NCBI GenBank assembly: GCA_963169355.1
Contig: CAUJCR010000015.1
Location: forward strand, 1-64,000
Reading direction: 5' to 3'
DNA: 64,000 nt
DNA from: Bacteroidota bacterium
GTDB lineage: Bacteria > Bacteroidota > Bacteroidia > B-17B0 > Aurantibacillaceae
Position 1 is the first letter of the stretch, and each line of letters starts with the position of its first letter. The translations under genes and the position numbers were made by a program. Below are positions 391-34,566 of the stretch, piece by piece. Under the pieces are notes generated by a model that was not told the DNA's origin, did not search any database, and saw only the letters and a list, made by a program, of their open reading frames with translations.

Positions 391-682
391 GTTTTACTTT
401 CTTTTGCCTTGAAGCAAAAGAAACAAAAGTTCAAGTTCTTTATAAAACTTTTTGTCTTGATACAAAAAGTTACAAAAAAATCAAGGCTCCTTAAAATTTC
501 ACTAAAATCTGCATATCATCAATTCGATTGTTCGAAGCGCTTCGCGAACAGCCCGAACAATCTTCGCACATTCCAACGCATTTGATAATATTTGATTTTT
601 ACGTGAAATTTTAAAATGCCATAGCAGTAACCGGAATAGTATCGTGTGTAAATCTACAAACAGGCTTTTGAGTGCGTGGACT
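391..682. repeat. Intergenic repeat, copy 1
   Basis: First of three diverged copies of one intergenic element. It contains, in order, a small hairpin CTTTTGC/GCAAAAG (401-407/414-420), a second hairpin ACTTTTTGT/ACAAAAAGT (447-455/462-470), and a 9-bp stem GATTGTTCG/CGAACAATC (526-534/554-562) around a loop with GCGCTTCGCGAACAGCC. It also has a conserved block ending in AAAATGCCATAGCAGTAACC near 612-632 and a tail GGCTTTTGAGTGCG (663-676). No credible gene is present. Short open frames on both strands are products of the repeat. Confidence 0.8.
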
Positions 683-823
683 TTTATTTTTCGCAGATAT
701 AGCCGTGAGAAAATCGAAGGGCGGGCACGAGCGCTTCGTGGGATTTTTGAATCGGCGGTTTTGTTTGGCGGAGAAAAGTGCGCAGAAAACAAAAATATCC
801 TTCCGAAAAATAAAACGGTTTTG

Positions 824-847
824 GATACTTTTGGCGCCAAAAGTATC
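824..847. repeat. Perfect 24-bp palindrome in the intergenic repeat array
   Basis: The sequence from 824 to 847 equals its own reverse complement (arms GATACTTTTGGC and GCCAAAAGTATC). The same module recurs at 1476-1499 with a changed centre (10-bp arms GATACTTTTT/AAAAAGTATC). Both are preceded by the same AAAACGGTTTTG block. Confidence 0.85.
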
Positions 848-867
848 GTAAAAGAAATTTTCTTACA

Positions 868-1104
868 TTCATTTGACTTGAAGCTAAAGAAAGAAAAATT
901 AAAATCATTCTAAAATCATCGTGGTATCAAGCTGATTCTTTGAAAGCGCTTCGCGAACAGCCCAAAGAATCTACACACTTGCCTTCGCTTTTGATACCCC
1001 TCGATTTTTACGCAACATTTTAAAATGCCATAGCAGTAATCGGAATAGTTTGATGCAAAAAAATATACAACAAACATACGAATAGGCTTTTGAGTGCGAG
1101 GACG
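868..1104. repeat. Intergenic repeat, copy 2
   Basis: Second copy. The first small hairpin is degenerate here. The large stem is GATTCTTTG/CAAAGAATC (934-942/963-971) around nearly the same loop as copy 1. The AAAATGCCATAGCAGTAA block is at about 1021-1039 and the tail GGCTTTTGAGTGCG at 1086-1099. Downstream, 1203-1211 (TAACTTTTC) pairs with 1226-1234 (GAAAAGTTA) as a further hairpin. No gene is supported from 296 to 1638. Confidence 0.8.
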
Positions 1105-1250
1105 TCCACGAAAGGTGCGAACTGAAGGTTTTATGGCTTGCAAGCGCAGGCTCGTGCGACAAATGAAACTTTCTGTTGGCTTTTGTGGGCTCTTTTCGTT
1201 TGTAACTTTTCTTTGGAGAGGCAAGGAAAAGTTATGAGAGTAAAAAATTA

Positions 1251-1499
1251 TCTTACTTTCTTTTGCCTTGAAGCAAAAGAAACAAAAGTTCAAGGCTTCT
1301 TAAAATCTTGCTAAAATCATCGTAGTATCAAGCTGATTCTTTGAAAGGGCTTCGCGAACAGCCCAAAGAATCTACACACTTGCTCTCGCTTTTGATAGCA
1401 CTCGATTTTTACGCAACATTTTAAAATGCCATAGCGACAACCGGAATAGCATAGCGTGTAAATAAAACGGTTTTGGATACTTTTTCCGAAAAAAGTATC
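1251..1499. repeat. Intergenic repeat, copy 3
   Basis: Third copy. It has CTTTTGC/GCAAAAG (1260-1266/1273-1279), the large stem GATTCTTTG/CAAAGAATC (1335-1343/1364-1372), the AAAATGCCATAGC block near 1422, and the GATACTTTTT/AAAAAGTATC hairpin (1476-1485/1490-1499). The remaining bases to 1638 hold the probable leader of the next gene, including a possible -7 element TAACTTAG at 1610-1617. Confidence 0.8.
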
Positions 1500-30670: not shown

Positions 30671-30689
30671 TTGACCGTTCTTTAAAATT

Positions 30690-30803
30690 ACTTATTAAGA
30701 AAAGCCGAGGGACACGCCCAATGAAGCTTTACCAACCCTATAGTAAATAAATATTTTTTTATAGAAGGTGGGAATTCGTTCCGAGTACATCGGAAAAATA
30801 AGT
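30690..30803 (+). ncRNA. SAM-I (S-box) riboswitch upstream of metH
   Basis: The conserved S-box elements occur in order: P1 strand ACTTATT, kink-turn side with GCCGAGGGACACGCC, CAATGAAGC, ACCAACC, a variable P3 with a long AT stem, GGTGGGAATTC, P4 CCGAGTACATCGG, and P1 closing strand AATAAGT. P1 pairs 30690-30696 with 30797-30803. In known members S-adenosylmethionine binding stabilises P1 and turns off methionine genes. It precedes metH directly and a terminator sits between them. Confidence 0.92.
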
Positions 30804-30837
30804 CAGAATAATATTTAGAAATTACAATTTATATGTT

Positions 30838-30882: not shown

Positions 30883-33800
30883 ATGAGCACAATACAACAA
30901 GAATTAGAAAAACGCATATTGGTGATTGATGGTGCCATGGGCACTCAAATACAACAATATAAACTCGAGGAAAAAGATTATAGAGGGAAACGCTTTGCCA
31001 ACTGGCCTGTAGATGTAAAAGGAAATAATGATTTATTATCCATTACAAAACCAGAAATTATAAAAACCATCCATAAAGAATATTTAAAAGCAGGAGCCGA
31101 TATTATTGAAACCAACACATTTAGTGGCACCACCATTGCCATGGCCGATTATGAGATGCAGGACTTGGTGTATGAACTCAACTATGAATCGGCTAAAATT
31201 GCCAAAGAAGCCATTGCTGAGTTTTATAAAGAATTTCCGGAGCAAGCCACTACCAAAAAATTTGTAGCTGGAGCCATTGGTCCTACTAACCGAACCTTAT
31301 CTTTATCGCCCAATGTAAACGACCCAGGTTTTAGAGCCATTACCTTTGATGAATTAGTAGCTGCTTACAAAGAACAAGTAAAAGGATTAATAGATGGCGG
31401 AGCTGATATTTTATTAATAGAAACTATTTTTGATACCCTAAATGCCAAAGCGGCCTTATTTGCCATACAAGAACATGGCAAAGAAATAAATCGCAAAATG
31501 CCTGTAATGGTATCTGGTACCATTACCGATGCTAGTGGTCGTACCTTATCGGGGCAAACAACCGAGGCCTTTTTAAATTCAGTGTCGCATGTTGATTTAT
31601 TAAGTATTGGTTTAAATTGTGCTTTAGGTGCAAAAGATATGCGACCTTATTTAGAGGAGTTATCTAACAAAGCCCCATTTTTTATTAGTGCTTATCCTAA
31701 TGCGGGTTTACCCAATCAGTTTGGCGAATACGACCAAGATGCTCACGAGATGGGGCATCAAATAGAAGATTTTTTAAAAGCAGGATTTATAAATATTGTA
31801 GGTGGTTGTTGTGGAACCTCGCCAGCACACATTAAACGCATTGCCGAAATTGCAAAAAATTTTAAGCCACGCCAAAAACCTCAACCAGATACATTAATGC
31901 ACTTGAGTGGTTTAGAGCCTGTAACACTACGCCCCGACAGTAATTTTATGAATGTGGGAGAACGTACTAATGTAACGGGTTCAAAAAAATTCTTACGCCT
32001 TATCAATGAACAAAAATTTGAAGAAGCACTTTCTATAGCACGCGAACAAGTAGAAGGTGGTGCACAAGTAATTGATGTTAATATGGACGAAGGAATGTTA
32101 GATGGCGCTAAAACCATGACCACCTTTCTTAATTTAATTGCTTCTGAGCCCGATATTTCGAAAGTACCCATTATGATAGATTCTAGTAAATGGGAAGTAA
32201 TAGAAGCTGGATTAAAATGTGTGCAAGGCAAAGCCATTGTTAATTCCATTTCATTAAAAGAAGGCGAAGCAGCCTTTATTGAACATGCTGCTAAAATAAA
32301 ACAATACGGCGCCGCTGTTATTGTAATGGCATTTGACGAAGAAGGACAAGCTGATACTTACCAACGAAGAATAGATATATGTAAGCGTGCTTATGATATT
32401 TTAGTTCACAAAGTACACTTTACACCACAAGACATCATCTTTGATCCAAATATTTTTCCGGTAGCAACGGGTATGGAAGAACATCGCTTAAATGCCCTCG
32501 ATTTTTTTAATGCTACCAAATGGATAAAAGAAAACTTACCACATGCCAAAGTAAGCGGCGGTGTAAGTAATGTATCGTTTTCATTTAGAGGCAATGATGT
32601 AGTGCGCGAGGCCATACATTCGGCTTTCTTATTTCATGCTATTAAAAACGGCATGGATATGGGTATCGTTAATCCATCTCAACTCGTTGTTTATGACAGC
32701 ATCGATAAAGAACTTTTAGAACATGTAGAAGATGTATTGTTAAATCGCCGTGATGATGCCACCGAGCGATTAATTACACTAGCCGAAAAACTAAAAGGCA
32801 CGAGTAACGAAAAAGCAGAAAAAGACGAAGCCTGGAGAAAAGGCACAGTAAACGAACGATTAACACACGCCTTAGTAAAGGGTATTGTAGAGTATATTGA
32901 AGAAGATGTAGAGGAATGTCGTAAAACAGCCGCAAAAACTTTAGATGTAATTGAAGGGCCATTAATGGACGGAATGAACGTTGTGGGCGATTTATTTGGC
33001 GCTGGTAAAATGTTTTTACCACAAGTTGTAAAAAGTGCCCGAGTAATGAAAAAAGCAGTAGCCTACTTATTACCATTTTTAGAAGAAGAAAAAGCAAAAA
33101 CGGGCGTTACACAAAAAAATAACGGAAAAATATTGTTGGCTACTGTAAAAGGCGATGTACATGATATTGGCAAAAACATTGTAGGAGTGGTGTTGGCTTG
33201 TAATAATTACGAAATTATTGATTTAGGCGTGATGGTATCTTGCGATAAAATATTAGAACAAGCTCGTCATCACAATGTGGATATTATTGGATTAAGCGGA
33301 TTAATTACCCCATCATTAGATGAAATGGTACATGTGGCTAAAGAAATGGAGCGCTTAGGTTTTAAAACGCCTTTATTAATTGGCGGCGCTACTACATCAA
33401 GAGTTCACACCGCTGTAAAGATTGATAAAAATTATTCGGGACCAGTTATTCATGTAAACGATGCTAGTAAATCGGTACCCGTTGCTAGCAACTTAATTTC
33501 AAACGAACTGAGAAAAGGTTTTATGTTGGAAATTGAGAAAGATTATGAGCGCATTCGCGAACAAAATAAAAATGCTCAATCACAAAATAAATTTATTTCG
33601 CTAGCCGAAGCTCAAGCCAATAAATACCCAATAGATTGGGAACGTACCTCAATTACCAAACCTACATTTATTGGTACCAAAGTTTTTACCGATTACGATA
33701 TTAGCGAAATAACACAATATATTGACTGGACACCATTCTTTCACAGTTGGGAATTAAAAGGTTCTTATCCTAAAATTTTTGAAAACGAAAATCATGGCAA

Positions 33801-34566
33801 AGAGGCCAAAAAATTATTTGATGATGCCCAACACATGCTTCAACAAATCATTAAAAACAAATGGTTAAGTGCCAGAGCGGTTATAGGTTTTTATCCAGCT
33901 AATAGCATTGGCGATGACATTGCAGTGTATAACGAAACAGGAAAACAAACTCATACATTTCACACCATTCGCCAACAAACTAAAAAACCAGCTGGGCAAT
34001 ACAATGTAGCCTTATCCGATTTCATCAAACCATCTCAAGACAATCAATTGCCAAGCGATTACATTGGCGCATTTGCGGTAAGCACTGGTTTTGGAATAGA
34101 TGAGCAAATTGAAGTATTTAGAAAAGACTTTGACGATTACAGTGTGATTATGCTAAAAGCATTAGCCGACCGCTTAGCCGAAGCATTTGCCGAATTAATG
34201 CACAAACGTGTTCGTAAAGAATTTTGGGGATTTGCAAAAGATGAAAACCTCAGCAATGATGAATTAATAAAAGAAGAATACATTGGCATTCGTCCAGCGC
34301 CTGGTTATCCGGCGCAACCCGACCACACCGAGAAAAATACCATTTGGAATTTACTAAAGGTAGAAGAAAATACAGGTATTCAACTCACCGAAGGTTTAGC
34401 GATGGTGCCTACCGCAGCGGTAAGTGGTTTATATTTCTCGCATCCTAATGCACATTATTTTGGAGTTGGAAAAATTAATAAAGAGCAATTAGAAGATTAC
34501 GCCAAACGTAAACAAATGGATATTGATGTAATGGAACGTTGGCTAAGTAGTGCCTTGAATTATTAA
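30883..34566 (+). CDS. metH: Cobalamin-dependent methionine synthase
   Basis: 1227 residues, all four modules present. The homocysteine domain has zinc cysteines in SIGLNCALG and [10 protein letters not shown]. The methyltetrahydrofolate domain is next ([20 protein letters not shown]...). The cobalamin domain has the DxHxxG motif in [13 protein letters not shown], about 756-765, and the activation domain ends the protein ([30 protein letters not shown]). It transfers a methyl group from methyltetrahydrofolate to homocysteine. Expression is under a SAM-I riboswitch. The full length means that reactivation by SAM is possible. Confidence 0.97.

Follow-up and report, generated by a model that had tools for sequence, protein, structure and literature searches.

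A MITE-like mosaic repeat of Bacteroidota with strong covariation and few wobble pairs, probably maintained as a DNA hairpin

Close to the start of the 64,000-nucleotide stretch of Bacteroidota DNA analysed here (the window) lies an intergenic repeat whose main stem differs at two base pairs between copies with pairing kept, which raises the question of whether its structure is selected and, if so, whether it works as an RNA or as DNA. Judging from sequence comparisons, we put at about 0.6 the probability that it is a non-autonomous, MITE-like mosaic DNA repeat resembling BIME, ERIC, and BOX elements and preserved in the form of a DNA hairpin. The structure is real, and the data, as far as they go, indicate that it is selected or maintained at the DNA rather than the RNA level.

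The three copies with a 9-bp stem and a nearly constant loop that an earlier note had described are present, at 526-562, 934-971, and 1335-1372 (plus strand, as are all features of the repeat given below). Read directly, the main stem is GATTGTTCG (526-534) with CGAACAATC (554-562) in copy 1, and GATTCTTTG with CAAAGAATC in copies 2 (934-942 and 963-971) and 3 (1335-1343 and 1364-1372); we refer to the GATTCTTTG/CAAAGAATC arms as type I and to the GATTGTTCG/CGAACAATC arms as type II. The constant core, GCTTCGCGAACAGCCC, occurs three times in the window against 0.06 expected from shuffles. An alignment of the three copies spans 150 nt, and the 9-bp stem is only the tip of an imperfect palindrome of ∼125 nt, here named M, in each of them (491-614, type II/II; 899-1023, type I/I; and 1300-1424, type I/I), scoring 141.5, 136.6, and 139.9 bits, respectively, with our R1 covariance model. 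The top loop of M is constant, and a one-sided internal loop is conserved.

The full unit consists of a left-end hairpin module, then M, and often then a right-hand block that ends in an inverted relative of the left end; it measures ∼420 to 450 bp in one genus. The left-end module is a stem with a CTTGAN loop complementary to NTCAAG just downstream. In the window it is found at 394-435 (CTTGAA loop, TTCAAG downstream), at 439-490, where a second module precedes copy 1 (CTTGAT loop with ATCAAG, and GGCTCC at its end), at 863-898 before copy 2 (degenerate, and missed by the loop/partner test described below), and at 1253-1299 before copy 3. The CTTGAA-loop palindrome stands at 394-435 and 1253-1294, with a 27-nt part occurring exactly twice and 0 expected. 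Right-hand modules follow copy 1 at 615-823, including a TTTTATTTTTCG/CGAAAAATAAAA stem (682-693 and 804-815), and copy 2 at 1024-1250, with a CGTGGAC/GTCCACG-type palindrome and a terminal hairpin near 1203-1234; the latter block has 26 matches within its own genome. The GATACTTTT hairpin appears at two places, as the 24-bp palindrome GATACTTTTGGCGCCAAAAGTATC at 824-847 and as the GATACTTTTTCCGAAAAAAGTATC hairpin 3' of copy 3 at 1476-1499. The palindrome and hairpin modules do recur in mixed order, as the earlier note had observed.

The 3.2-Mb genome (61 contigs) carries 24 core-bearing copies, 22 exact and 2 with one mismatch, after three weaker pattern matches were excluded by eye as noise. 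Many copies or modules lie near contig ends (C4, C6, C8, C12, C30, C53, C55, and C61), so the assembly breaks at these repeats and the copy number is a lower bound. The main-stem arms of the 24 copies are I/I in 13, II/II in 6, I/II in 3, and II/I in 2; a C·C or G·G mismatch interrupts the stem of the five hybrids. In the four hybrids with typable outer arms, the outer arm matches the inner arm of the same side, which places the switch in the constant core between the arms. In one further copy (L106), the inner arms are type II on either side and the outer arms type I. The two compensated pairs of the window are therefore two standing haplotypes with recombinants present, and the window's own two base-pair changes are weak evidence of compensation, since they amount to one contrast between two pre-existing sequence types, with no series of independent compensations, and 5 of the 24 copies combine an arm of one type with an arm of the other.

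Relatives of the element extend across the family. A blast search with one copy finds it in 12 of 60 genomes, and the R1 covariance model detects relatives in 34 of 87 family genomes and 4 of 10 genera; an order-level scan yielded the same 87 genomes. A second model, R2, matched 10 of 395 genomes of the class under strict filters and with only eight candidates scored per genome; nine are of the same family and one (G520) of another. The E-values of both models are rough, and most of the genomes look like metagenome-assembled genomes (MAGs). The copy in G520 (L251) has different stems and keeps the plan and the internal loop around GCACATGCCCTCGCTTTGA. Those named records in which the core occurs exactly are MAGs of uncultured Bacteroidota (16 stretches). 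When the left end was searched for with a pattern of fixed length, only 2 of 296 genomes of the phylum matched, and since left-end spacing varies, this says little about spread. The loop can pair downstream in an automatic hairpin test in 100 of 129 copies (a list that excludes one truncated copy, L102), a few of which have loops other than CTTGAN, and the sixth base of the loop covaries with its partner (TA 70, AT 20, CG 13, other 3; n = 106). In some left-end modules (L043, L204, L205, L209, L213, and L163), the small hairpin is replaced by one ending in a GAGCCAGCCTGTGTG-like sequence, and the NTCAAG partner is retained. We also note a copy without half of its left-end hairpin (L053, in G016:C50) that is fused to the 3' end of a gene, which we take to be pyrF from the way it reads; the remainder of its reading frame was looked for downstream at this locus and not found.

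The evidence for conserved pairing comes from this wider set of copies. With 43 copies (alignment A1, in which 6 of 49 copies without both ends were left out), 92.2% of cells pair, both sides have changed in 13 of 38 pairs, and covariation is 0.170 against 0.073 when shuffled and at most 0.056 when slid. With 105 copies, 92.6% of cells pair, both sides have changed in 37 of 38 pairs, and covariation reaches 0.491, compared with 0.122 after shuffling and no more than 0.083 after sliding; alignment A2 excludes eight antisense matches, and alignments made with a covariance model lean towards the model. The pairing of the M arms is truly conserved despite total sequence turnover, which bears out the earlier proposal that pairing is kept while sequence drifts. 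One-sided changes fall on terminal rather than internal branches (196 and 36) far more than substitutions at unpaired positions do (359 and 211; p = 8e-10), in counts by parsimony that treat copies of mobile DNA as a tree; five hybrid-labelled matches were left out of these counts, of the C>T and G>A counts, and of the RNase P comparison below, and a mosaic-looking copy (L050 of G018) was kept. Single copies thus decay and lasting lineages stay paired, as is to be expected if selection acts on the element's own propagation. Stem changes that break pairing, which the earlier note had named as the finding that would refute its reading, do occur to some extent genome-wide, in the 5 of 24 mismatched hybrids and in the one-sided changes of decaying copies, so that this refutation applies in part.

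Strong covariation of this kind would ordinarily point to a structured noncoding or cis-acting RNA, such as a 3'-UTR stability element or terminator selected by the host in each copy, and the conserved internal and top loops, the left-end pairing of loop with downstream sequence and its covarying sixth base, the position of copies downstream of genes, and the retention of some copies at orthologous sites all agree with such an RNA. As a control, the RNase P RNAs of 60 genomes in the family (of 79 with a match) were compared with 107 copies, using the same tree and parsimony code, at mean identities of 0.689 for the element and 0.699 for RNase P; the 80%/70% filters removed 4 of the 103 pairs in RNase P and 3 of the 38 in the element. 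G·U occupies 13.2% of cells in RNase P and 0.9% in the element (1.9% if the minus strand is folded, still far below), and A·C 0.6% and 1.9%, respectively. One-sided events leading to G·U and A·C number 228 and 24 in RNase P and 31 and 62 in the element. Among double changes, transitions and transversions number 278 and 177 in RNase P and 94 and 119 in the element, where transversion pairs make up over half. The G·U tolerance expected of structured RNA helices is not seen in the element, and together with the concentration of one-sided changes at the tips, the homogenisation within genomes described below, and the lack of an Rfam family, this makes an RNA unlikely in our view. Of the earlier suggestion that selection on structure indicates an RNA or a recognised DNA element, the conservation of pairing is supported and the RNA branch is not.

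Across all 38 pairs of the element, A·C exceeds G·U (77 and 34; p = 5e-5), and unpaired positions show no matching bias (70 C>T and 69 G>A changes), so that the minus strand is perhaps the folding one; we take this as a hint. Searches of the window against Rfam matched only a SAM riboswitch and no family for the element itself, and the element loci gave only chance-level matches, none to an Rfam covariance model at its gathering score. The SAM riboswitch (RF00162, 71.3 bits) lies at 30689-30804 on the plus strand, shortly upstream of a 1,227-amino-acid open reading frame (ORF) at 30883-34566.

Covarying arms could also arise with no selection on pairing, if template switching or copying within the palindrome during replication perfects quasi-palindromes and the arms change together by mutation. 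Double changes that are as often transversions as transitions, the scarcity of wobble intermediates, and arms that change in concert are what such a process would produce. It should, however, erase the one-sided internal loop, which is conserved even in the other family (L251), and the constancy of the top loop and the rarity of mismatched lineages on internal branches also argue against mutation as the whole account, which we regard as improbable. Template switching or arm copying may nevertheless be the mechanism of arm correction inside a selected element.

Copies within a genome are homogenised in sequence, and they exchange arms as well as entire hairpin modules. For orthologous sites, taken as sites of different species that have the flanking genes and the orientation in common, nine pairs in five groups were compared; in 15 of 18 copy-wise comparisons, a copy is nearer to its best paralogue within the genome than to its orthologue. 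L137, for example, has a paralogue at 0.94 and orthologues at 0.78 and 0.87, and L164 a paralogue at 0.86 and an orthologue at 0.63. The exceptions are L174 against L180 (0.79, 0.80), L184 against L157 (0.82, 0.84), and L172 against L161 (0.79, 0.90). The compared copies differ from one another in both partners of 1 to 11 pairs, which nevertheless still pair. Another copy, L186, has the flanking genes common to L164 and L179, is absent from the same-orientation list, and seems to lie in the opposite orientation at that site; it is likewise nearer to its own paralogues.

One syntenic site was read in eight species. G354 has a left end, M, and a right block there; in G359 the same ends flank another long hairpin, M', which is also present at a different locus of G380 (L267); G364 has only the right block, and G381 a left end with a collapsed hairpin. 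In G380 (L260) and G360 (L263) no part of the element is present and another interspersed repeat occupies the site (CCACAGATTTCACTGATTTACACAG ... AAATCTGCGGC in G380), so a truly empty site was not found among the eight species, both element-free sites holding another repeat. In G363 (L265) and G373 (L264) the site holds a palindrome containing the Flavo-1 RNA (RF01705; 50.6 and 49.4 bits, with a gathering threshold of 42); the Flavo-1 sequence is embedded in a larger palindromic repeat that has GGGCGTGCCC and ACGCCCA at its borders. A scan of 60 further loci found no Flavo-1, and the link to Flavo-1 thus rests on one site and is no rule.

The genomic context is consistent with spread into sites where insertion is tolerated. 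Among 128 distinct copies, 104 have an ORF on both sides, and these gaps are convergent in 45 cases, ++ in 28, -- in 19, and divergent in 12; the corresponding numbers for 44 element-free gaps (from the window and 16 named contigs) are 6, 14, 9, and 15. The convergent share is higher for the element (p = 0.0006) and the divergent share lower (p = 0.002), with crude ORF calls and a small baseline behind both values. Copies thus sit mainly downstream of genes. The element also has traits of a MITE: it is short, has no transposase gene, is present in multiple dispersed copies (24), and in full copies has terminal inverted repeats in the form of inverted related modules, with many copies lacking the right end.

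A transposase or common mobilising protein was looked for in the flanks of the copies and not found, the only recurring proteins being ORFs that run across the repeats, members of widespread domain families, and sets of orthologous genes. The palindromic form, 3'-intergenic location, and BIME-like mosaic recall REP/REPIN elements moved by a RAYT (Y1_Tnp) transposase, and PF01797 genes are present in 57 of the 87 family genomes. None of 31 Y1_Tnp loci, however, contains an element match, 10 of the 34 genomes with the element lack a PF01797 match, the Y1_Tnp gene of the genome itself sits among other short repeats, and the element is far longer than REPs. We rejected linkage to RAYT on the first two of these grounds, and consider movement by such an enzyme very improbable. 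That Y1_Tnp gene is at positions 1100-2060 of L056 (G000:C7:50889-54233), amid repeats such as CTCCGTAGGAGCAACATCATAATAGAA that resemble a separate REP system. Resemblances to hammerhead, to pistol, and to an integron attC site were considered as well and tentatively set aside; the constant top loop presumably speaks against attC.

Under the preferred reading of a MITE-like DNA repeat, the hairpin would act as DNA, as a cruciform or a single-stranded hairpin, perhaps of the minus strand, and an enzyme encoded elsewhere would recognise it. The arms might be copied onto each other when the DNA folds or the element amplifies, copies would spread to 3' intergenic positions where they are tolerated, and the arm hybrids could arise when copies recombine at the constant core. 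Mobility, an enzyme that recognises the element, a DNA hairpin as its working form, and the copying of one arm onto the other are what we infer from the patterns above. Several observations count against the DNA-repeat reading. Orthologous copies share position and orientation, which shows that some of them are old and have been retained; the A·C excess is modest and depends on the strand, which is not what a pure double-strand model predicts; there is no flanking transposase, no clear target-site duplication among 14 pairs of left and right ends inspected, and no truly empty site; and in the left-end stem (plus strand) G·U exceeds A·C (22 and 7), unlike in M.

ERIC sequences of enterobacteria are dispersed intergenic imperfect palindromes with inverted ends. 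Like these, BIMEs, and MITEs, the element is a dispersed intergenic imperfect palindrome or mosaic with no gene of its own and with inverted ends in full copies; it differs from them in keeping its pairing through total sequence turnover and in swapping hairpin modules within a shared frame, the sequence comparison being through Rfam and the literature. BIMEs are REPs in mosaic arrangement (PMC2817692). Pneumococcal BOX elements, which PMC3049150 describes as modular (boxA-boxB-boxC), extensively folded, likely parasitic, and slow in transposition, are likewise modular folded repeats; they belong to another phylum, and covariation and an RNA control were measured for the present element, whereas the words covariation and compensatory are absent from that paper's main text. 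REPIN/RAYT systems are also populations of hairpin DNA that persist in genomes, and the element differs in having no linkage to Y1_Tnp genes. Among the literature excerpts retrieved by motif strings and topics, no description of the element was recognised, and on our best reading it is a new variant alongside BIME, ERIC, and BOX, with module swapping and arm exchange.

Flavo-1 shares with the element the character of a dispersed structured Bacteroidota motif, and in two of the eight species it occupies the intergenic site of the G354 element. The element itself has no match to RF01705 at E ≤ 10; such a match is confined to the alternative repeat that occupies the site in G363 and G373. In a transcriptome study (PMC9723704), Flavo-1 matches are reported to lie indistinctly sense or antisense of transcribed regions, with many outside them. 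We tentatively entertain, with some doubt, a cassette-type element in which interchangeable hairpins (M, M', and others) sit in a shared terminal frame, are swapped at palindrome centres, and have their arms perfected on DNA by an unrecognised enzyme; some Bacteroidota "small RNAs," including Flavo-1, could then be such DNA cassettes.

Covariation is the usual proof of a structured RNA, and here it is overwhelming without the wobble pattern that a real RNA shows in these genomes, so that RNA discovery relying on covariation alone can go astray where repeats abound. Comparing G·U with A·C and transitions with transversions, with a same-clade RNA as reference, offers a simple way to screen other Rfam candidates, and the orthologous sites of the element provide a series for studying how palindromes stay perfect and swap.
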